64,000 nt of DNA from Haladaptatus sp. ZSTT2 (GTDB taxonomy: Archaea > Halobacteriota > Halobacteria > Halobacteriales > Halococcaceae): contig NZ_JBAMHQ010000001.1 of NCBI RefSeq assembly GCF_037081775.1, positions 1,612,001 through 1,676,000 of the forward strand, read 5' to 3'. Every line of letters starts with the position of its first letter. The stretch's first letter is position 1. Shown here piece by piece: positions 31,301 through 41,877 of this stretch. A program made the position numbers and the translations under genes. The notes beneath the pieces are model-generated. The model was not told where the DNA came from and made no database searches. It saw only the letters and a program-made list of their open reading frames with translations.

Positions 31301-32206
31301 TCACTCGGCGTCCGCGAGGAACGTGAGCAGTGCCTTCTGGGCGTGCATCCGGTTTTCGGCCTGCTGCCAGACAATCGACCGGTCGGATTCGATTACCGCG
31401 TCGGTAATCTCCTCGCCCCGGTGGGCAGGGAGACAGTGCATGACGAGCGTGTCGTCGTCGAGGAACGTCTCGTTGAGCTGGAAGCCGTCGAACGCTTCGA
31501 GCTTCATCGCACGCTGGTTCTCTTGGCCCATGCTCACCCAGACGTCGGTGTACACCACGTCCGCACCCGCGACGGCGTCGTCCGGGTCGTTTGTGGTTTC
31601 GGGGGCCTGTCCGAGGCCCGCTGCGGTGCCAATCACCGCTTCGGCTATCTCGTAGCCCTCGGGGGTGGCAACGGTCACGTCAAGGCCGACCATCGCCGCG
31701 CCCAAAACAAAGGACTGGGCGACGTTGTTGCCGTCACCGACCCACGCGACGGAGACATCTTCGAAGCCGTCGAAGCGCTCTTTGATGGTAAGCAAATCCG
31801 CGAGCGTCTGGCACGGGTGGGCGTCGTCGGTGAGACCGTTTACGACCGGCACGTCTGCGTACTCGGCCAGTTCCACGAGGTCTGCGTGCTCGAACACACG
31901 CGCCATGAGGAAATCGACGTAGCGCGACACCGCCCGCGAGGTGTCCTTGAGCGGTTCGCCGCGGCTCAACTGGATGTCCTCGGGGCCGAGGAAGATGGCG
32001 TGGCCGCCAAGTTGAGTCATGCCCGTCTCGAAGGAGATGCGGGTTCGCGTACTCGGTTTCTCAAACAGCATCCCGAGCGTTTGGTTCTCCAGATGCTCGT
32101 GGGCGTCTCCGGCTTCGACGGCGGCTTTCAGGTCAGCCGCGGTGTCGAGGACGGTGTCCAGTTCGGCAGTCGAAAGGTCGTCGATATCGAGGAAGTGACG
32201 GGTCAT
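31301..32206 (-). CDS. argF: ornithine carbamoyltransferase ArgF
   Basis: 301-aa enzyme making citrulline from ornithine and carbamoyl phosphate. The carbamoyl-phosphate motif STRTRISFE, the HPCQ loop (DDAHPCQTLADL) and the HCLPAHRGEE ornithine/catalytic Cys motif are all present. It ends the seven-gene minus-strand operon from lysW, overlapping the upstream deacylase gene by 4 bp. Confidence 0.97.
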   Translation of the reverse strand: MTRHFLDIDDLSTAELDTVLDTAADLKAAVEAGDAHEHLENQTLGMLFEKPSTRTRISFETGMTQLGGHAIFLGPEDIQLSRGEPLKDTSRAVSRYVDFLMARVFEHADLVELAEYADVPVVNGLTDDAHPCQTLADLLTIKERFDGFEDVSVAWVGDGNNVAQSFVLGAAMVGLDVTVATPEGYEIAEAVIGTAAGLGQAPETTNDPDDAVAGADVVYTDVWVSMGQENQRAMKLEAFDGFQLNETFLDDDTLVMHCLPAHRGEEITDAVIESDRSIVWQQAENRMHAQKALLTFLADAE

Positions 32207-33240
32207 GATTTGAGTTTTTTACAGACAGCTTCGAGCACCGACACCGCGCGGTCGTATTCGGCGAGCGGCAGGTGTTCGTTCGGTGCGTGGTCTAAGTCCG
32301 AGTCGCCGGGACCGTAGGTCACCATCGGGCAGTCCCACTCCCCGGCGAAGATGTTCATGTCGCTCGTGCCGGTTTTCCGGAGCAAGCGTGGCTGTCCACC
32401 TTCGGCGCGAATCGCCACACGAAAGGCACGGGCGACTTCGGTGCGCGGACTCATCATCACGGGCGGGATGTGGCGACGCCACGTTATTGTGCCCGTGTGC
32501 AGGTGAGTTTCCGCAATCTCGCGGATGTCGTCTGCGGTGAGACTTGGCGGGATGCGAAACTGGATGGTTGCCGTGGCTTCGACGGCGAGGCCGTCTTCGG
32601 ACGTGCCGCCGTGGAAGTCGGTCGGCTTTGCCGTCACCTGCTCGAAGACGGGCGTGTCGTCGGGTACTGAAAACTCCTCTGCGACGGCGCTCCACCACGC
32701 GATGGCGTCTTGCAGCGCGTTGTTCTCCGGCCGCGAGGTGTGCCCGGACTCGCTCGTGGCGATGTACGTCCCGGGCAGGAAGCCCCGATAGCCGAGCGTG
32801 ATGCCGTTCCAGCCGCTCGGCTCGCCGTTGATGACCGCATCGGGGACCGTTTCGCGCGTTTCGACGAGGTGGCGTGCGCCGAGCGAATCGGTCTCCTCGC
32901 GCACCACGCCGACGAAGCTCACGCCGGTCGAGACGGCCGCGGCGGCCATCGACGCGAGCGGCCCCGTCGCGTCCACGCTCCCCCGGCCCCAGAGCGCGTC
33001 GCCCGAGCCGTCTTCGGCGGGGGCGATTTCGACGGGAATCTCGCCGGGGACGGTGTCGATGTGCGAGGTGAGCAACACGCTGTCGTCTGCGGGTGCGCGG
33101 ACGTTGCCAACCTCGTCTATCCACACCTCGCGGTCGTGTTCTTCGAAGTAGGCAGCAAGGCGCTCTGCGGCGGCGGCTTCGTCGCCGCTCACCGAGGGAA
33201 TCGAAACGAGATCTGAAAGGATGGTTTGCGCGTCGGTCAT
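32203..33240 (-). CDS. argE: [LysW]-ornithine/lysine hydrolase (ArgE/LysK type)
   Basis: 345-aa M20-family zinc peptidase. It releases ornithine from the LysW carrier protein in the LysW-dependent arginine pathway. The metal-binding His-Asp is in LLTSHIDTVPG, with WGRGSVDATG and VREETDSLGA later (Asp/Glu bridging ligand). The context is diagnostic: it lies between argD and argF, with 4-bp overlaps. Family members may also deacylate LysW-lysine; that specificity is not readable. Confidence 0.92.
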   Translation of the reverse strand: MTDAQTILSDLVSIPSVSGDEAAAAERLAAYFEEHDREVWIDEVGNVRAPADDSVLLTSHIDTVPGEIPVEIAPAEDGSGDALWGRGSVDATGPLASMAAAAVSTGVSFVGVVREETDSLGARHLVETRETVPDAVINGEPSGWNGITLGYRGFLPGTYIATSESGHTSRPENNALQDAIAWWSAVAEEFSVPDDTPVFEQVTAKPTDFHGGTSEDGLAVEATATIQFRIPPSLTADDIREIAETHLHTGTITWRRHIPPVMMSPRTEVARAFRVAIRAEGGQPRLLRKTGTSDMNIFAGEWDCPMVTYGPGDSDLDHAPNEHLPLAEYDRAVSVLEAVCKKLKS

Positions 33241-34364
33241 TGCAGTATCTCTGCGAGGGCGTCTACGACCGTGTCGGCGTGTTCCTCCTCAATGATGAGC
33301 GGCGGGAGGAACCGCACGACAGTCCGCCCTGCGGGGAGGGCGAGAATCTGGTGGTCGAGCGCGAGGTCGCGGAGCATGCGGTTCGCGCCGCGTTTGACCT
33401 CAACGCCAATCATCAGGCCTTCGCCGCGGATGTCGCGGACGGTGTCGCCGACCTTTTTCTCTAACTCGCTCGTGAGGTACTCGCCCATCTCGGCTGCGTG
33501 GGCGGGAATCTCCTCGTCTACGAGCGTCGAGAGCGTGGCGTTTGCCGCCGCGCAGATGACCGGGCCGCCGCTGAACGTCGAACCGTGTGGCCCGGCGTCT
33601 GCGGCAATCCAGTCTGCGACGAGCGTCGCGCCGACCGGGAGGCCGTTTGCGAGGCCCTTCGCGCTCGTGAGGATGTCGGGGGTGACGCCCGACTGCTCGC
33701 ACGCCCAGAGCGTGCCCGTCCGGCCGAGGCCGGTCTGAATCTCGTCGAAGACGAGCGCCGCACCCGTCTCGTCGGTGAAATCACGGGCCGCCTGCAGGTA
33801 GCCCTCGGGGGCGGGATTGATGCCGCCTTCGCCCTGAATCGGTTCGAGGAAGACGGCCGCCGTGTCGTCGTCCACGGCTTCGTCCAGTGCGTCTTCGTCT
33901 CCGTAGGGGACGAACTCCACGTCGTCTACGAGCGGCTCGAAGGGGGCTTTGTACTTCTTCTTCCACGTCGCAGACAACGCGCCTGCGGTGCGGCCGTGGA
34001 ACCCGCGGGTGGCCGCGATGATTTTCGTGTTGTCGGTCGCACTCCGGGCGAACTTGATGGCCGCCTCGTTGGCTTCCGTGCCCGAGTTGCAGAGCCAGAC
34101 GTTCGAAATGTCGCCCGGTGCGAGGTCAGCGAGTCGCTCGTACAACTCGTCGCGGGCAGAAACGGGGTACGATGCCTGCACGTAGGTCAGCGTCTCGGCT
34201 TGGTGCTGGACGGCTTCCGTGACCGTCGGGTGGCAGTGGCCGAGTGGCGTGCAAGCGTAGCTTGCGCCAAAGTCGAGGTAGTCAGTGCCGCCGTCGTCGG
34301 TGACGGTGACGCCGCTGCCTGAGTCGATACGAATCGGTTTTTCTGAAAAGACAAAGCCGCTCAT
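33237..34364 (-). CDS. argD: [LysW]-acetylornithine-type aminotransferase ArgD
   Basis: 375-aa class III aminotransferase acting on the semialdehyde produced by ArgC, LysW-linked in this pathway. The PLP Lys is in TSAKGLANGLPVGA, preceded by VFDEIQTGLGRTG. The TxxGSTF-type GSTFSGGP loop contacts PLP phosphate from the other subunit. Start and stop overlap neighbouring arg genes by 4 bp each. Confidence 0.95.
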   Translation of the reverse strand: MSGFVFSEKPIRIDSGSGVTVTDDGGTDYLDFGASYACTPLGHCHPTVTEAVQHQAETLTYVQASYPVSARDELYERLADLAPGDISNVWLCNSGTEANEAAIKFARSATDNTKIIAATRGFHGRTAGALSATWKKKYKAPFEPLVDDVEFVPYGDEDALDEAVDDDTAAVFLEPIQGEGGINPAPEGYLQAARDFTDETGAALVFDEIQTGLGRTGTLWACEQSGVTPDILTSAKGLANGLPVGATLVADWIAADAGPHGSTFSGGPVICAAANATLSTLVDEEIPAHAAEMGEYLTSELEKKVGDTVRDIRGEGLMIGVEVKRGANRMLRDLALDHQILALPAGRTVVRFLPPLIIEEEHADTVVDALAEILQ

Positions 34365-35185
34365 GACTGGAGTGCGCCGGGGGTGATGTGGGTACCGCCG
34401 CCGTTTACGGCCGCGGTGAGTGGTGCCTCTGCGTTCGCGTCTGCGACGACGACTTCGCTCGCGCCGCCTTCGAGTGCCTCAGTCGCGGCCATGACCTTCT
34501 TCGTCATGAACCCCTCTGCGGCGTCTTCGATGACGGCGAACTCTTCGGGCGTCGTCGCCTGCGAGATGAGTGTCGATGCGTCGTCCGGGTCTTCGAGGAT
34601 GCCCGGTACGTCCGTGAGGACGACGAGCGTCGCGCCGAGTGCGCCCGCAATCGCCGCGGCCGCCCGGTCTGCATCCGCGTTGACGGGAACCCCGTCATCC
34701 GCGAGCATCGGAACCGTCGCAACGGGCGTGTAGCCTGCTGCGAGCAGGGTTTCGAGCAGGTCCGCGTTGACCGCGGTAATCTTCCCGGAGTGGTCGCCGC
34801 GGCGAATCTTCTTCTTGCCGTCTTCTACGACGCGCACGGCCGACTTCCGAGGTCCAGTGAGGAGTTTCCCATCGACGCCGGAGAGGCCGACCGCGTTGAC
34901 GCCCGCGTTCTGTAAGAGCGTCGTGAGGTCGGTGTTCAGCAGGCCGGGCATGACCATCTTGAACACCTCGATGGTGGTTTCGTCGGTAAACCGCCCGACG
35001 ACGCCGCCGGGGGTTTCGACGTACTCGGGTTCCTCACCAAGGCGCTCTAAGGTGTCATCGACGGCGGTCGAGCCACCGTGGACGACGACGACCTGTTCGC
35101 CCTGCTTGATGAGGTCCGCAATATCCGCAACCGCACCCTCGGGGTTGACCGCGCGTGCGCCGCCTATCTTCACAACTACCGTCAT
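34361..35185 (-). CDS. argB: [LysW]-aminoadipate/glutamate kinase ArgB
   Basis: 274-aa amino-acid kinase-fold enzyme that phosphorylates the gamma-carboxyl of LysW-bound glutamate. It has VVKIGGARAVNP and the gly-rich VVHGGSTAVDDTLERLG near the N-terminus, the LGATLVVLTDVPGILEDP nucleotide region, and a C-terminal NGGGTHI. It is adjacent to argC (0 bp between the stop of argC and its start). Confidence 0.95.
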   Translation of the reverse strand: MTVVVKIGGARAVNPEGAVADIADLIKQGEQVVVVHGGSTAVDDTLERLGEEPEYVETPGGVVGRFTDETTIEVFKMVMPGLLNTDLTTLLQNAGVNAVGLSGVDGKLLTGPRKSAVRVVEDGKKKIRRGDHSGKITAVNADLLETLLAAGYTPVATVPMLADDGVPVNADADRAAAAIAGALGATLVVLTDVPGILEDPDDASTLISQATTPEEFAVIEDAAEGFMTKKVMAATEALEGGASEVVVADANAEAPLTAAVNGGGTHITPGALQS

Positions 35186-36229
35186 CTACGGTGCCCCCAC
35201 GGGGTGCAGGCCGAGGAAGTCTAAGCCCGCAGTTTCCTCTAAGCCAAGGGCGATGTTGGCCGCGTGAATCGCCTGTCCGGCCGAGCCTTTCATCATGTTG
35301 TCGATGGCCGAAAACACGACGAGGCGCTTGTTGCGTGGGTCGAGTTCGAAGCCGACTTCCGCGAAGTTCGTTCCGGCCACGGCTTTGGGTTCGGGGTAGC
35401 GATAGACGCCACCGCCGCCAGCGGCCATCCGGACGAACGGTTCGTCCTCGTAGCTGCCCCGGTAGGCTTTCCAGAGGTCGCCTTTCGTGACGCGCTCGTT
35501 CGGGAAGACGTGGCAGGTGGCCGATGCGCCGCGAATCATGTCCACGGCGTGGACGGTAAACGAAACGCGAAGGCCGAGTTCCTGTTCGATTTCCGCCTCG
35601 TGGCGGTGGGTGATAGGCGCGTACGGGCGGACGATACCCGAGCGCTCTGCGTGCGAGGAGGCTTTCCCACCGCTCGCACCGCCCTCTGAGGAGCCGACTT
35701 TCACGTCAACGACGACCTGTTCGTCGCCGCCGAGGATGCCCGCTTCGAACAGCGGGTAGAGGCCCATAATCGTCGCTGTGGCGTTACAGCCACCCGCGGC
35801 GATGAGGTCCGCGCCGGGGAGATCCTCACGGTGGAGTTCGGGCAGTGCGTACACCGATTTTTCCAGTAGCTCGGGACGCTCGTGGCCGTCGTACCACTGG
35901 TCGTACTGGTCTGTGGTCTTGAGGCGGAAATCCGCGCTCAGGTCAACGACCGTGTCCGCGGCCTCCTGAAAGCCGTCGATGTGCTGCATCGAGACGCCGT
36001 GGGGCGTCGCGGCGAACAGGATATCCACGCTTTCGAGGTCGTCAGGTGCAGAAAACCGGAGGTCGGTGCCCCGAAGGTTCGGGTGGACAGACCCCACGGA
36101 CTTGTTCGCGTATTGGCGGCTCGTTGCCTGGGCCACCTCGAAATCGGGGTGGCCGGTCAGCAGGCGAAGGAGTTCGCCGCCGGTAAAGCCGGAGCCGCCG
36201 ACGACGGCGGCTGAGAGTTGCTCGCTCAT
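35186..36229 (-). CDS. argC: [LysW]-L-2-aminoadipate/glutamate-6-phosphate reductase ArgC
   Basis: 347-aa NADPH-dependent reductase forming the semialdehyde. The nucleotide fold is VVGGSGFTGGELLRLLTG. The active-site Cys is in LIAAGGCNATATIMGLYPL, and a His-containing block SEGGASGGKASSHAERSGIVRPYAP follows. It starts 1 bp inside the argX stop, indicating coupling. Length and domain order are standard. Confidence 0.96.
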   Translation of the reverse strand: MSEQLSAAVVGGSGFTGGELLRLLTGHPDFEVAQATSRQYANKSVGSVHPNLRGTDLRFSAPDDLESVDILFAATPHGVSMQHIDGFQEAADTVVDLSADFRLKTTDQYDQWYDGHERPELLEKSVYALPELHREDLPGADLIAAGGCNATATIMGLYPLFEAGILGGDEQVVVDVKVGSSEGGASGGKASSHAERSGIVRPYAPITHRHEAEIEQELGLRVSFTVHAVDMIRGASATCHVFPNERVTKGDLWKAYRGSYEDEPFVRMAAGGGGVYRYPEPKAVAGTNFAEVGFELDPRNKRLVVFSAIDNMMKGSAGQAIHAANIALGLEETAGLDFLGLHPVGAP

Positions 36230-37098
36230 CAGGCAGGAACCTCGACCTTGACCTTGGATTCGAGCCAGTCGACGACCTTCGCGGGCACGTCCACGTCAGT
36301 CGCGTCGGTGAGCGCCTTGAACTCGACGGTGTGGTTGACCTCGTGGACGGTGTAGCCATCACCGGTCTCCATGAGGTCGATTCCCAACAATCCGCCGCCG
36401 ACGGCGTCACTCGCCTTCTTGACGAGTTCGAGTGCCTCGTCGTCGAGTTCGAACGCTTCGGTTGTCGCACCCTTCGCGGCGTTGGTCAGCCAGTGGTCGG
36501 AGCTACGAACCATCGCGGCGACGGGTTCGCCGTCGGTTGCGAGCACGCGGATGTCGCGGCCGGGCTTGTCCACGAACTCCTGGATGTAGAACACCTTGTG
36601 CTCGTAGTGGCCAAGCGTTGCCTTGTGTTCTAAGATGGCTTCGGCTGCGTCACGCGAGTCGAGTTTGGCCATCAGGCGGCCCCACGACCCGACGACGGGT
36701 TTGAGGACGCAAGGGTAGCCGAACTTCTCGATGGACTCCATCGCGCTCTCTTTGGTGAACGCTACGTCCGTCGCGGGCGTTGGGACGCCCGCCTGTGCGA
36801 GCGCGAGGCTGTTTTTCGCCTTGTCGGCGCACACCTCGGCGGTCTCCGGGCTGTTTATGACCGGGATGCCGTAGGCAGCGACGTACTGGGTTGCGTACTT
36901 GCTCCGGCTCGTGGCGAGACAGCGGTCTAAGACGATATCGACGTCGTCGAAGATTTCAGGTGGTTCGGTCAGGCCGAACTGCACCTTGCGGACGTCGATT
37001 TTCGTGACCTCGTGGCCGCGCTCGCGGAGTTCTGCGAGCAGGAGTTTCTCGTCTTTGCGGATGCGCGAGTAGAGGATGCCAACGTTCATGCGAGCCAC
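36229..37098 (-). CDS. argX: [LysW]-glutamate ligase ArgX (ATP-grasp)
   Basis: 289-aa RimK/LysX-type ATP-grasp ligase joining the alpha-amino group of glutamate (or aminoadipate) to the LysW C-terminus. It has the N-terminal fold MNVGILYSRIRKDEKLL and VLKPVVGSWGRLMAKL for ATP. The metal site is GGGLLGIDLMETGDGYTVHEVNHTVE-like, with Asp and Asn. It is separated from the lysW gene by 33 bp. The gene context favours arginine, but substrate selectivity is not provable by reading. Confidence 0.93.
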   Translation of the reverse strand: MARMNVGILYSRIRKDEKLLLAELRERGHEVTKIDVRKVQFGLTEPPEIFDDVDIVLDRCLATSRSKYATQYVAAYGIPVINSPETAEVCADKAKNSLALAQAGVPTPATDVAFTKESAMESIEKFGYPCVLKPVVGSWGRLMAKLDSRDAAEAILEHKATLGHYEHKVFYIQEFVDKPGRDIRVLATDGEPVAAMVRSSDHWLTNAAKGATTEAFELDDEALELVKKASDAVGGGLLGIDLMETGDGYTVHEVNHTVEFKALTDATDVDVPAKVVDWLESKVKVEVPA

Positions 37099-37131
37099 CT
37101 CGTCGTGGTGTGGGCGTTCGTGACTTGCAAT

Positions 37132-37296
37132 TTACTCCCCCCAGTCCTCTTCCAGCTCAGGGGCCTTCTCGAGGACCGGCGGGTTGACGTCCACTACTTC
37201 GAGTTCAGCGCCACAGGTTGTGCAATCTACGATTTCGCCAATTTCTAAGTCGTCGTGAAGCGCCACATCGGCTCCACATTCGACACATTCTGCCAT
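37132..37296 (-). CDS. lysW: LysW-type amino-group carrier protein
   Basis: 54-aa acidic carrier. The zinc-binding Cys pairs are CVECG and CTTCG. The C-terminus EDWGE is the glutamate end to which ArgX attaches the substrate; this ending is the family's signature. ATG 37296 is chosen rather than 37320, since TTTATAG lies 30 nt before it and a GGAGG-like sequence is in the spacer. It is first in the operon. Confidence 0.95.
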   Translation of the reverse strand: MAECVECGADVALHDDLEIGEIVDCTTCGAELEVVDVNPPVLEKAPELEEDWGE

Positions 37297-37322
37297 GGTG
37301 ATTGCTCCTCCGACACGCACCC

Positions 37323-37329
37323 CTATAAA
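37323..37329 (-). promoter_or_regulatory. TATA element of the lysW-argXCBDEF operon
   Basis: Plus-strand CTATAAA, read on the minus strand as TTTATAG, centred 30 nt before the lysW ATG (37296). Confidence 0.65.
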
Positions 37330-37343
37330 CCCATCGAACTTGT

Positions 37344-37367
37344 CAGACTAAAACAATAAACAGACTA
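37344..37367 (-). promoter_or_regulatory. CAGACTA direct repeat, possible arg operator
   Basis: Plus-strand CAGACTA at 37344-37350 and again at 37361-37367, spaced 17 nt. The second is followed by an inverted partial copy, CCGTCTA. The pair lies just upstream of the TATA box and could bind a regulator of the arginine operon. Confidence 0.4.
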
Positions 37368-37464
37368 CCGTCTAACCGCACCGAGATGGCAATTTTCGCA
37401 CGTTCTGAATTCGCATTATCAAATTCCAGATGTATTATTCGTCCCTCGAAGGGACGGCGGTCGT

Positions 37465-38919
37465 TCACACATACTGATTCACCTCGTCGTGGAGTTCGGC
37501 GCGGGTCGTCGTGAGGTTGTCACGGTGGAACGCCACGCACTCCTGGTCTGCTTCGCGAGCCTCGGTCGCCGCCGCGAGATGGGCCGCCACCGCCTCAGCG
37601 GCGGGGCCACCCTGCGAGTCGCGGCTCTCGACGCTCTGAGCGGGGTCAAGCGCCGCCTCGACGGCCTCCTGTGAGACGTAGTCTGAAAGGGGCGCACCGA
37701 GTAGCTCCTCCGCGGCCGCCGCAATCGTCTCGTATTCCTGACCTTCCGCTGCCGCCGTCGCCACGACTTCGTGGGCCGTGCGGAACGGAATCCCGGACAT
37801 CGCAAGCAGGTCTGCGACGCCGGTCGCCGTCGAGAAGCCAGCCCCCGCCTCCGTGGCGAGGGTGTCCTCCTGCCAATCGGCCGTCGCCACCGCGCCCGCC
37901 GCGACGGCCGTCGCTTCGGTCACGGCATCTGCGGCCGCCCACGCGTGGGGTGTCGCGTTCTGTAAGTCGCGGTTGTACGCGCGGGGCAGCCCCTTCAGCG
38001 TCGTGAGCAGGCCGTTCAGGCCCGCGCTCGCGTTGCCCGCCGTCGAGCGCACGAGTTCGAGCGTGTCGGGGTTCTTCTTCTGGGGCATAATCGAGGAGGT
38101 CGATGAGTAGTCATCGGACAGCTCGACGTAGCCCTTGTTCGCGAACACGATGATGTCTTCAGCGAGGCCAGACAGCGTCGTCGCGAGCGTTGCGAGCGCG
38201 CTTACCCCTTCGAGGAGGAAGTCGCGCGCCGAACTCGCGTCCATCGAGTTTTCGAGGACGCCGTCGAAGCCGAGCAACTCGGCGGTGCGCTCGCGGTCGA
38301 TGTCGAACGGCGTGCCCGCAAAGGCCGCCCCGCCAAGGGGCGACTGATTCACGCGCGCATAGGCGTCCATGAGACGCGCCGTATCCCGAGAAAGCGCCTG
38401 CTCGTAGCTGAGCAGGTAGTGGCCAACCGTCGTCGGTTGGGCGGGCTGGAGGTGGGTGAAACCGGGCATCAGCGTGTCTGCGTGTTCTGCGGCCACCTCA
38501 CAGAGCACCTCGCGCAGCGCGAGGGTCGCCTCTGCGGCGTCGAGGAGGTCCTCGCGGAAGCGGTGGCGGATGCACGCCGCGACCTCGTCGTTGCGGCTGC
38601 GGGCGGTGTGCATCTTCCCACCGACGGGGCCAATCTGGCCGATGACCGCCGTCTCGATGGCGGCGTGGATGTCCTCGCCGTCGGGGAGCGCCGAAAAGCC
38701 CTCCACCTCAACGACGTTGAGCGCTTGGAGAATCTGGCCCGCCTCGTCCTCGCTGATGATGCCCTGCTCTGCGAGCATCAGGACGTGGGCGCGGTCTACC
38801 TCTAAGTCCGCGGTGAAAATCCGGGTGTCCGCATCCATCGAGGAGAGGAATCCGCGGGCGGGGCCGCCGCTAAAGCGTTCCCGGCGAACCACGTCGCCAT
38901 CTGCGGATTCCTCCCCCAT
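37465..38919 (-). CDS. argH: argininosuccinate lyase ArgH
   Basis: 484-aa lyase giving arginine and fumarate. The family signature is SSIMPQKKNPDTLE with the catalytic loop, and the N-terminal 'MHTARSRNDEVA' and TPHAWAAADAV segments are conserved. ATG 38919 gives MGEESADGDVVRRE; the upstream 25 in-frame residues (to 38994) are unlike ArgH and lie within argG. It starts 1 bp after the argG stop, a two-gene operon. Confidence 0.95.
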   Translation of the reverse strand: MGEESADGDVVRRERFSGGPARGFLSSMDADTRIFTADLEVDRAHVLMLAEQGIISEDEAGQILQALNVVEVEGFSALPDGEDIHAAIETAVIGQIGPVGGKMHTARSRNDEVAACIRHRFREDLLDAAEATLALREVLCEVAAEHADTLMPGFTHLQPAQPTTVGHYLLSYEQALSRDTARLMDAYARVNQSPLGGAAFAGTPFDIDRERTAELLGFDGVLENSMDASSARDFLLEGVSALATLATTLSGLAEDIIVFANKGYVELSDDYSSTSSIMPQKKNPDTLELVRSTAGNASAGLNGLLTTLKGLPRAYNRDLQNATPHAWAAADAVTEATAVAAGAVATADWQEDTLATEAGAGFSTATGVADLLAMSGIPFRTAHEVVATAAAEGQEYETIAAAAEELLGAPLSDYVSQEAVEAALDPAQSVESRDSQGGPAAEAVAAHLAAATEAREADQECVAFHRDNLTTTRAELHDEVNQYV

Positions 38920-38920
38920 T

Positions 38921-40159
38921 TCACTGGTCCTCGCCGCCGTCTGCCATCGGCGTTGGCGCTTCCTGTTTTGCGCCTTTGAGAATCGAGTTCGCAAGGCGCG
39001 ACTGGAAGCCGTGGTACTTCGCCACGCCGGTCGCGTCTGCCTGCGTGATGCCGTCGACCGTCTCCGTGTTGAACGAGGCGGCCGATTCTGAGTACACCGC
39101 GAAATCGCTCTCGCGGGCGACGACGCGGGCCTGTCCGCCCTGGAACTTCACGGTGACCGTACCCGTGACGCGCTCTTGGGTCGTGTTGATGAACCCTTCG
39201 AGCGCCGTGACGAGCGGGGCGTTGATGAGGCCCTCGTAGGCTTTTTCAGCCCACTGGTTGTCGATTTGTTTCTTGAACGAGCGCTCCTCTTTGGTGAGGA
39301 CGAGCTGTTCTAAGCCCTCGTGGGCGTTCAGGAGCACTGTCGCGGCGGGGTGCTCGTAGTTCTCGCGCACTTTGAGCCCGAGCATGCGGTCTTCCATCAG
39401 GTCGGTGCGGCCAATGCCGTATTTGCCTGCGAACTCGTTCAGGTACTCGATGAGCGAGACGGCGTCCAGCTGCTCGCCGTCTACGGCGACCGGGTAGCCG
39501 TTCTCGAACGTAATCTCGACGAGTTCGGTCTCGCCGGTCGGGGCCGTCGTCCACTCGTAGATGTCCTCGCCGGGGATGAACGAGGGGTCTTCTAAGTCGT
39601 CGCCTTCGACCGAGCGACTCCAGAGGTTCGTGTCGATACTCCACGCGCCCTCGTTGCCGCTCTCTACGGGGAGGTTCTTCTCTGCTGCGTACTCGATTTC
39701 CCACTCGCGGGTGAGGCCGAGTTCGCGCACGGGAGCGATGACTTCTAAGTCAGATTCGCGCCAGACGGCCTCGAAGCGCAGTTGGTCGTTGCCCTTGCCC
39801 GTACAGCCGTGGGCGATGCCGGTACAGCCGACCTCTTTTGCCTTTTCGAGGATGGCTTCGGCGATGATTGGGCGGGCGAGTGCGGTGCCAAGTGGGTAGC
39901 CTTGGTAGTCTGCGTTCGCTTTGACGGCGTCAAGACAGAGGTTTGCGAACTCGGCTTTCGCGTCGATGACGTAGTGTTCTAAGTCGAGCGCGTCTGCGGT
40001 CTCTTCTGCTTCGTCGAACTCAGCTTCCGGTTGGCCAACGTCGACGGTGATGCCGACGACTTCGTCGTAGCCGTATTCTTCTTTGAGCAGTGGGACGCAA
40101 ACGGTCGTGTCGAGCCCGCCGGAGAAGGCGAGGGCGATTTTTGTGGATTCTGTGGTCAT
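38921..40159 (-). CDS. argG: argininosuccinate synthase ArgG
   Basis: 412-aa N-type ATP pyrophosphatase joining citrulline and aspartate. The PP-loop SGGLDTTVCV is at residues about 14-23. The ARPIIAEAILEKA and HGCTGKGNDQLRFE motifs contact ATP and citrulline. The C-terminal tail is acidic. A long 5' leader holds a mini-ORF and two hairpins (see 40197-40353), and no TATA lies within 30 nt of the ATG. Confidence 0.97.
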   Translation of the reverse strand: MTTESTKIALAFSGGLDTTVCVPLLKEEYGYDEVVGITVDVGQPEAEFDEAEETADALDLEHYVIDAKAEFANLCLDAVKANADYQGYPLGTALARPIIAEAILEKAKEVGCTGIAHGCTGKGNDQLRFEAVWRESDLEVIAPVRELGLTREWEIEYAAEKNLPVESGNEGAWSIDTNLWSRSVEGDDLEDPSFIPGEDIYEWTTAPTGETELVEITFENGYPVAVDGEQLDAVSLIEYLNEFAGKYGIGRTDLMEDRMLGLKVRENYEHPAATVLLNAHEGLEQLVLTKEERSFKKQIDNQWAEKAYEGLINAPLVTALEGFINTTQERVTGTVTVKFQGGQARVVARESDFAVYSESAASFNTETVDGITQADATGVAKYHGFQSRLANSILKGAKQEAPTPMADGGEDQ

Positions 40160-40196
40160 TGGGTGTGTGCTGTGGGATGGGTTGTCGGATGTGACA

Positions 40197-40224
40197 CTCA
40201 GAACACGTAGTTGTACGTTCTGAG
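40197..40224 (-). promoter_or_regulatory. 8-bp hairpin in the argG leader
   Basis: Perfect CTCAGAAC/GTTCTGAG arms with a 12-nt interior containing a further GTA/TAC pairing. It lies about 38 nt before the argG ATG. It could act as a leader hairpin or DNA palindrome. Confidence 0.55.
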
Positions 40225-40262
40225 GAAGTGAGGCGAACCGGACGTTGAAGAATTGGTATTAA

Positions 40263-40276
40263 GGGCCTAGAGGCCC
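40263..40276 (-). promoter_or_regulatory. 6-bp GC hairpin overlapping the mini-ORF stop
   Basis: Minus-strand GGGCCTCTAGGCCC: GGGCC and GGCCC arms around a 4-nt loop that contains part of the TAG stop. TTAATACC follows. It is positioned as an attenuator-type stem, but the following sequence is not a clear U-run. Confidence 0.5.
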
Positions 40277-40353
40277 GGTCGCGGTCGCACGCTGACGATA
40301 ACGGACGCCGTGCTCACCGAGAGGGGCGAGCCAACGACGGCAGTCCGTGACAT
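40267..40353 (-). CDS. 28-codon leader ORF upstream of argG
   Basis: Minus-strand ATG at 40353, 28 codons, starting MSRTAVVGSP and ending SVRPRPGL, with high third-position GC. The last Arg codons are both CGA, a rare codon in this genome. A TATA-like TTTTGTA lies about 27 nt before the ATG, fitting a leaderless mRNA. It ends inside a hairpin 107 nt before argG. It looks like an arginine-responsive leader peptide, but no mechanism is proved. Confidence 0.5.
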   Translation of the reverse strand: MSRTAVVGSPLSVSTASVIVSVRPRPGL

Positions 40354-40437
40354 GTGTTGAAATCATGAGAGAGAGGAGTACAAAAGTGTTGCGCATTTTC
40401 GGGCGGAAATCGCCTGCCGTGCGTGAGAATGTGTACC

Positions 40438-40959
40438 TCAGACGAGCGTCTTCGGGCGCGTCGAGAGGTAGTCAAACACCGCGCCGAGGGTGAAGCCGTA
40501 GGCGAAGTGGGCCAACAGCGTCACGACGAGGTAGAGGGCGAGCGCGAGTCCGCCCACGCCCGGATAGAACGCGGGCGCAAAGCCGGTCCACAGCACGAAG
40601 CCAAAGGAGACGCCCTTTATCGCGTATTTCTCACCCGGGAGGTACGCTCCGAGCGAGGCGAGCAACAGCGGCCAGATTATCATGCCGCCAAGCAGGAAGA
40701 TGGCGTAGCCAACCGCCGTGGGGTTCGCCGGATAGAGCGCATCGAGGCCGAGCAACGTCGCAAACGAGGCGAACTCGCTCACGTCGAAGACGCTCAGCGA
40801 CGCGCCAACGAGCAGTCCAATCGTCATCGCCGCCGTGCCGACCAGCCCGCCTACCGCGCCGACGAACCCGTCGGTGATGACGCCGGTCAAATGGTCAAAA
40901 TCCGGGTCTGCCACGTCGTCTGACATCTCCGCTAAATATTGCGCATCATTTTCGGCCAT
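40438..40959 (-). CDS. polytopic membrane protein, function unknown
   Basis: 173-aa protein starting MAENDAQYLAEMSDD, with an acidic head and four to five hydrophobic stretches (for example VGAVGGLVGTAAMTIGLLVG and YAIFLLGGMIIWPLLLASLG). It is divergent from the cytochrome oxidase operon with an AT-rich spacer. I believe similar haloarchaeal proteins are called DUF6789, but this is weak recall. Proximity suggests a role near the oxidase. ATG 40959 avoids a hydrophobic non-homologous extension. Confidence 0.65.
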   Translation of the reverse strand: MAENDAQYLAEMSDDVADPDFDHLTGVITDGFVGAVGGLVGTAAMTIGLLVGASLSVFDVSEFASFATLLGLDALYPANPTAVGYAIFLLGGMIIWPLLLASLGAYLPGEKYAIKGVSFGFVLWTGFAPAFYPGVGGLALALYLVVTLLAHFAYGFTLGAVFDYLSTRPKTLV

Positions 40960-41083
40960 GTCAATAGTTACCATTACTACCGGCAAAAACGTTCCCTCTC
41001 TTGCTGCCACGTAGACAGTTTTTATTTCTTATGTATTTGGGCGGATAGGGTGTGTTTTGTGGGCATTAATCGGTCTGAAATCC

Positions 41084-41101
41084 GTGAATTCCCGAAATCA
41101 C
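41084..41101. promoter_or_regulatory. imperfect palindrome upstream of coxB
   Basis: GTGA-a-TTC-cc-GAA-a-TCAC with only the A/A pair mismatched. It lies in the divergent region between the membrane gene and the oxidase operon, about 25 nt before an AT-rich TATA area (GAATATACATATAATAATAG at 41111-41130). Confidence 0.35.
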
Positions 41102-41139
41102 TAAATGTGCGAATATACATATAATAATAGATTGTGATA

Positions 41140-41877
41140 ATGATTTGGGTACCACTTGTCACGAGTATCTTCCTCGCGTCTGGGCTTGGGGGACTCATTC
41201 CGGGGGGGACGCGCGCGAACGTGTTCGAACGAATTTTCGTGGTATTCCTCATCCTCGGCACGCTCGTCGGGGTTGTCGTTATCACCTACATGTTGTACAA
41301 CGCGTACAAGTACCGCGACCAGCCGAGTCGCGCGAAATCGGATGCGAAAGACCGCCCACGCCTCGGTGAACTCCCGACCGGTGGTGGCGGCGGGCGGAAA
41401 CTGTTCGTTTCGTTTTTCCTGAGTTCGATTATCGTGCTCTCACTTATCACCTGGACCTACGGAACGCTGCTGTTCGTCGAAGCCGGGGACGTCCCTCAAG
41501 AAGACGAACTGGAAATCAAGGTCACCGGCTTCCAGTTTGGCTGGAAGTTCGAGTACCCAAACGGGCACACGACGTCGGGTGAGCTGCGGATTCCAGAGGA
41601 CCAGCGCATCCGCCTCGTCGCCACCTCAGAAGACGTGTTCCACTCCTTTGGCGTCCCGGGGTTGCGGGTGAAAATGGACGCCATCCCCGGCCAGGAGACG
41701 ACTCAGTGGGTTATCGGCGACGAACCGGGGTCGTATCAAGCGCTGTGTTACGAACTCTGCGGGGTGGGGCACTCCTACATGGCGGCTGATATTATCGTCA
41801 TGGAGCGGGGTGCGTTCGACGACTGGTACGAGAACACGACGGCGAACGAAACGGCGAATCAAACGGTGACAGCATGA
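41140..41877 (+). CDS. coxB: cytochrome c oxidase subunit II (CuA)
   Basis: 245-aa (ATG) CuA-carrying subunit. Two N-terminal hydrophobic spans precede a periplasmic/extracellular cupredoxin domain. The CuA ligands are in [13 protein letters not shown] (His) and [12 protein letters not shown] (Cys, Cys, His, Met). It accepts electrons from a halocyanin or cytochrome and passes them to subunit I. The GTG at 41134 would add two residues. It overlaps the next gene by 4 bp (ATGA). Confidence 0.95.

Follow-up and report, generated by a model that had tools for sequence, protein, structure and literature searches.

A ribosome-mediated arginine attenuator probably governs the haloarchaeal argGHWXCBDEF cluster. 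In its most specific form, this would be a codon-sensing device present in most haloarchaea, in which a ribosome translating a leaderless mRNA decides whether transcription ends at the stop-codon hairpin and its adjoining G-free stretch, possibly through FttA/aCPSF1; this fuller version is mildly favored. The sensing component, in which a ribosome would read the supply of charged tRNA-Arg at CGA codons, is well supported by comparison of the leaders, and termination, as opposed to an effect on translation or decay, would be the output. Such an arrangement is known in bacteria as an amino-acid-sensing switch and, as far as we found, is undescribed in archaea: full-text literature searches, conducted largely outside subscription journals, returned no archaeal ribosome-mediated attenuator.

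Leader and arg cluster in the window

The leader lies on the minus strand of the window, the whole stretch of 64,000 nucleotides that was analyzed. The first-pass annotation had proposed a TATA-like element, a 28-codon frame, a hairpin bearing the stop codon of that frame and a second hairpin before argG, and all four are present on the minus strand where it had placed them. It overlooked a strong hairpin inside the frame (stem I) and the G-free stretch past the stop-codon hairpin (stem II). The features are as follows.

40379..40385, minus strand: TATA-like element TTTTGTA of the leader promoter, with its first T 32 nt 5' of the ATG
40267..40353, minus strand: leader mini-ORF of 28 codons, MSRTAVVGSPLSVSTASVIVSVRPRPGL and a stop, from the ATG at 40353 to the TAG at 40269-40267, apparently leaderless
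40301..40348, minus strand: stem I, a long hairpin in the 5' half of the mini-ORF (ACGGAC-GCCGT ... ACGGC-GTCCGT)
40277..40287, minus strand: Arg/Pro codon tract CGA CCG CGA CC(G) in the mini-ORF tail
40263..40276, minus strand: stem II, GGGCCTCTAGGCCC (GGGCC-TCTA-GGCCC), with the TAG stop inside
40244..40262, minus strand: G-free stretch containing C and U, 3' of stem II
40224-40217 and 40204-40197, minus strand: arms of hairpin III, CTCAGAAC...GTTCTGAG, 8 bp, before argG
38921..40159, minus strand: argG, argininosuccinate synthase, the first gene of the cluster (NCBIfam NF010392, 657 bits; TIGR00032, 455 bits)
31301..38919, minus strand: argH, lysW/argW, argX, argC, argB and argD, then an argE-like and an argF-like gene

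The mini-ORF stop is separated from the argG start by 107 nt. The genes from argH to argD were assigned by NCBIfam, and the argE-like and argF-like genes were called from the frame sequences at 32203-33240 and 31301-32206 together with the known haloarchaeal arginine gene set (PMC10433800). CGA is rare in the window, as had been noted: ten of its genes contain 136 Arg codons, of which 5 are CGA. At window positions 39000-41500, no Rfam covariance model scored a hit at E = 1 or below.

Conservation of frame, codons and stems

The proposal that a leader with rare Arg codons beside a stem senses arginine for argG is strongly supported, at the level of sequence, by conservation among haloarchaea; an unconserved frame or unconserved hairpins, named beforehand as grounds for refuting it, are clearly not what the loci show. 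Of 99 haloarchaeal argG loci, drawn from many families, 96 have a leader frame at the equivalent site, with Haloferax among the genera that carry it, and the CGA codons, the stop-codon hairpin and the TATA spacing recur with the frame. The 99 loci comprise 80 from genome contigs and 19 from the window's genus and family; they include near-identical genomes, at least one of them twice (L067, Halococcus thailandensis, is the same as L090), and 71 distinct regions are left when near-duplicates are removed. The three loci without a leader frame are L054, which begins at argG, L061 (Halolamina pelagica) and L101, as judged by an ATG-based scan that would miss GTG starts such as the one that L074, a relative of L061, appears to use. 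L101 (G017:C19) is a divergent second argG copy, and the other argG of the same genome has the leader.

Almost all of the mini-ORFs are 22 to about 50 codons long. Their Arg/Pro-rich C-terminal tail is conserved and the N-terminal half of the peptide is not. A T/A-rich element begins 29-35 nt 5' of the ATG in 93 of the 96 leaders. Leaderless transcripts are common in haloarchaea, and this spacing fits the leaderless start expected for them. In four Natronorubrum-type loci (L037, L039, L040 and L043) the frame reads through stem II and its stop is displaced by 65-79 nt, which counts against an attenuator; the frame of L039 contains eight consecutive Arg codons.

Arginine makes up 42% of the last ten mini-ORF codons. 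The tail contains two to eight Arg codons, in tandem or alternating with Pro, and its CGA codons are 5-11 nt from the left arm of stem II. Codon choice in this tail is CGA in 76%, CGG in 20% and CGC in 2% of Arg codons. The argG genes of these species use CGC for 70% of their Arg codons and CGA for 2%, and the earlier portion of the mini-ORFs themselves uses CGC for 48% and CGA for 13%. Over the 33 nt leading up to stem II, the ATG frame contains 306 CGA triplets, and the two remaining frames contain 12 and 4. Because the frame of CGA is kept while ORF length shifts between lineages, selection appears to act on translated, rare Arg codons. These patterns argue for selection on the rare codon CGA, beyond arginine alone.

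Stem II, with 4-8 bp, is found at the same site in 96 leaders and is built from 20 different arm pairs. The arms are GGGCC/GGCCC in most leaders, have their sides exchanged (GGCCC/GGGCC) in Haloferax and others, are GGGGTC/GACCCC in Halorussus, and also occur as CGGGCTC/GAGCCCG. Arms were compared sequence by sequence because unequal loop lengths misplace them in the MAFFT alignment, on which RNAalifold predicted no structure and pair counts are weak. The stop codon is inside stem II in 85 of the 96 leaders and directly after it in 7. The right arm is mostly outside the frame, so that the pairing is not explicable by coding. Stem I is retained as a structure with sequences unrelated between clades: its mean z is -1.9 over 81 distinct leaders with both dinucleotide and codon shuffles, and in the window it reaches -5.3 (dinucleotide shuffle) and -4.8 (codon shuffle). 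Past stem II, G falls to 0% at +5..+9 and 1% at +10..+14 across the 96 leaders, and C+U rises to as much as 88% at +10..+14. There is no U-run 3' of stem II but instead this A/C/U stretch devoid of G, and the lack of one weighs against an attenuator.

The two hairpins of the first-pass annotation differ in their conservation, since stem II recurs in the 96 leaders and hairpin III keeps its arms in the genus only. In three congeneric genomes the arms of hairpin III are identical and its loops varied. Its own z in the window is -1.3, and it was rejected as a general part of the leader with a mean z of -0.6 in loci without an internal TATA-like element and -0.1 in the other loci. The suggestion of competing stems was not borne out. 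In the genus, the one alternative pairing, of the Arg tract and left arm with sequence farther 3', gives strong duplexes (-20 kcal/mol), but the mean rank of a leader's own partner is 0.52, no better than the partners from other species. No conserved antiterminator pairing was found among the leaders, another point against an attenuator.

Distribution was assessed with R1, a covariance model that spans the tail, stem II and the stretch 3' of it. R1 matches 153 of the 195 genomes of the order, nearly always in one copy each. The 42 genomes without a match count against an attenuator, although the large scans used stricter filters, such that a missing match in one genome does not prove loss. One genus (g8, with G021, G037, G048, G058 and the other listed members) has no R1 match, unlike most of the order. 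In a sample of 197 genomes from the phylum, all 20 matches fall within the same order and none in the roughly 160 other genomes sampled. Twelve extra matches were read, and in 12 of 12 argG follows about 170-200 nt downstream. In the window's own genome the leader scores 37.5 bits and other matches about 24 bits or less; the three best of these secondary matches look like gene interiors and were rejected. A search of this genome with a degenerate DNA pattern gave no second copy, but as written the pattern misses the leader itself too. Two negative contrasts lack such an arrangement: carA has no Arg leader, and trpD has no recognizable leader ORF, with trpE inside its operon.

Proposed mechanism and its alternatives

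A leaderless mRNA that begins at or beside the mini-ORF ATG would be loaded immediately by a ribosome, which would then trail RNA polymerase. When charged tRNA-Arg is ample, the ribosome would read the CGA codons, halt at the TAG and depart; stem II could then fold, the G-free C/U stretch would be exposed, and RNA polymerase would terminate before argG. When arginine is short, the ribosome would wait on CGA with its footprint over the left arm of stem II. The ribosome footprint reaches roughly 13-15 nt past the A site. With the left arm covered, stem II could not form and the arg genes would be transcribed. The role of stem I is probably to slow the polymerase or to bar the loading of further ribosomes. 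Termination may be of the hairpin type, as in Haloferax volcanii one hairpin was by itself enough to end 59% of transcripts (PMC7237163), or may proceed via FttA/aCPSF1, an archaeal termination factor analogous to Rho whose link to transcription-translation coupling is so far a proposal (PMC11616081). In the latter case, the G-free stretch could be a binding or cleavage site for an FttA-like factor. The Haloferax sRNA_61, which is 111 nt long, ribosome-bound and yields no protein (PMC12482152), could be such a leader RNA.

The main rival of termination is translational control, in which the same sensor has another output and the stalled or finishing ribosome controls the translation or stability of argG mRNA, much as at a uORF. 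Archaeal terminators are usually U-rich and none of that kind is present here, and in mycobacteria, leaderless poly-Cys ORFs exert a cysteine-dependent attenuation on the genes that follow them (PMC9031893). However, the distance from stem II to argG ranges from 67 to 148 nt and no conserved pairing hides the argG start, which makes direct coupling or sequestration hard to build, and this output is considered unlikely. A more distant prospect is that the leader is a remnant, or only a separate small RNA, and that argG has its own promoter. TATA-like elements do occur between leader and argG in 55 of the 96 loci, mostly in Haloferax and Natrialba relatives and Haladaptatus; an example is GAATTTAAGTC, ~40 nt 5' of argG (L006, L017, L024, L029, L036, L068 and others). 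They count against an attenuator, since some transcription of argG may avoid the leader at these loci, and in the Haloferax and Natrialba relatives the sequence suggests that argG may have a second promoter. By the same test, the element is absent from 41 loci, the window's whole genus included, where CTTAATA (40263-40257) was rejected as an argG TATA because it is conserved in the genus only. Strong order-wide selection on CGA and the stems also speaks against a remnant, which is very improbable.

Two further explanations are even less probable than a remnant. If the mini-ORF encoded a functional small Arg-rich protein, with the stems incidental, the conserved Arg/Pro-rich C-terminus would be expected, but not an unconserved N-terminal half, a length that ranges from 22 to about 50 residues, selection on a rare codon instead of on Arg alone, or a stop codon within a stem that has a largely non-coding right arm. 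Alternatively, the palindrome GGGCCNNTAGGCCC might be the DNA operator of a transcription regulator, given that it is near-palindromic and near a promoter. The arms of stem II nevertheless change together, from GGGCC/GGCCC to GGCCC/GGGCC, GGGGTC/GACCCC and CGGGCTC/GAGCCCG, which is incompatible with a fixed protein site; the site is also downstream of the start region, and an operator would leave the frame, the codon choice and stem I without explanation.

Comparison with known systems and leuA-like genes

In bacteria, attenuation governed by the translating ribosome is textbook knowledge. Like the bacterial trp, his, leu and phe attenuators, the haloarchaeal leader combines a short frame before a biosynthetic operon with end-product codons beside stems, placed where a stalled ribosome would affect a stem. 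Unlike them, it is archaeal and has an apparently leaderless start with no ribosome-binding site, its control codons lie between two stems rather than within the first, and its stop codon is inside the second stem. Mutually exclusive terminator and antiterminator stems and a GC stem with a U-run, both hallmarks of the bacterial systems, were not found here. In fungi, the arginine attenuator peptide encoded by the CPA1/arg-2 uORF stalls the ribosome at high arginine through its nascent peptide sequence. The haloarchaeal leader resembles it in having a short upstream frame tied to arginine supply, but only the Arg/Pro tail is shared among the leaders and the codon is strongly constrained, so that a conserved stalling peptide acting independently of codon choice is not seen. 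The closest described system is that of the mycobacterial leaderless poly-Cys ORFs (Canestrari et al. 2020, as cited in PMC9031893), which are short, have tandem end-product codons and start as the haloarchaeal frame appears to, without a leader. They differ in domain and amino acid, and the leader described here uses mostly one rare synonym and adds a covarying stop-codon stem.

If the proposed attenuator exists, it would show that archaea use coupled transcription and translation for regulation, and it would explain haloarchaeal control of arginine synthesis. As a conserved case in genetically tractable organisms, it would make two questions testable: the regulatory coupling of archaeal ribosomes to RNA polymerase and the response of FttA-type termination to translation.

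Short frames also accompany two leuA-like genes. In the first, a 2-isopropylmalate/citramalate synthase gene (L213-L242 and L187-L195; G000:C1:293149-294000 in the window's own genome), an ATG just upstream opens a short frame that is offset from the main one by exactly one base; this holds for 29 of 30 loci from haloarchaea, the thirtieth being cut near a contig end. This ATG is often behind a TATA-like element, and at several loci the main frame is interrupted by a stop, after which no ATG, GTG or TTG occurs before a conserved (V/I)EFFQGTL. These features suggest conserved +1 programmed frameshifting at GG(U)/GA(U) CGA GUU, where the rare codon CGA appears again. The second leuA-like gene (L196-L203; near G000:C1:2239504-2240268 in the window's own genome) has a conserved mini-ORF, M(AIM)TSDRFIRxPxR... 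followed by a stop, that overlaps the GTG start (CCAGTGACC) in another frame, together with a hairpin whose arms covary (TTCGGGTCCCTTCCCGAA, TTCGGGGGCCTCCCCGAA).
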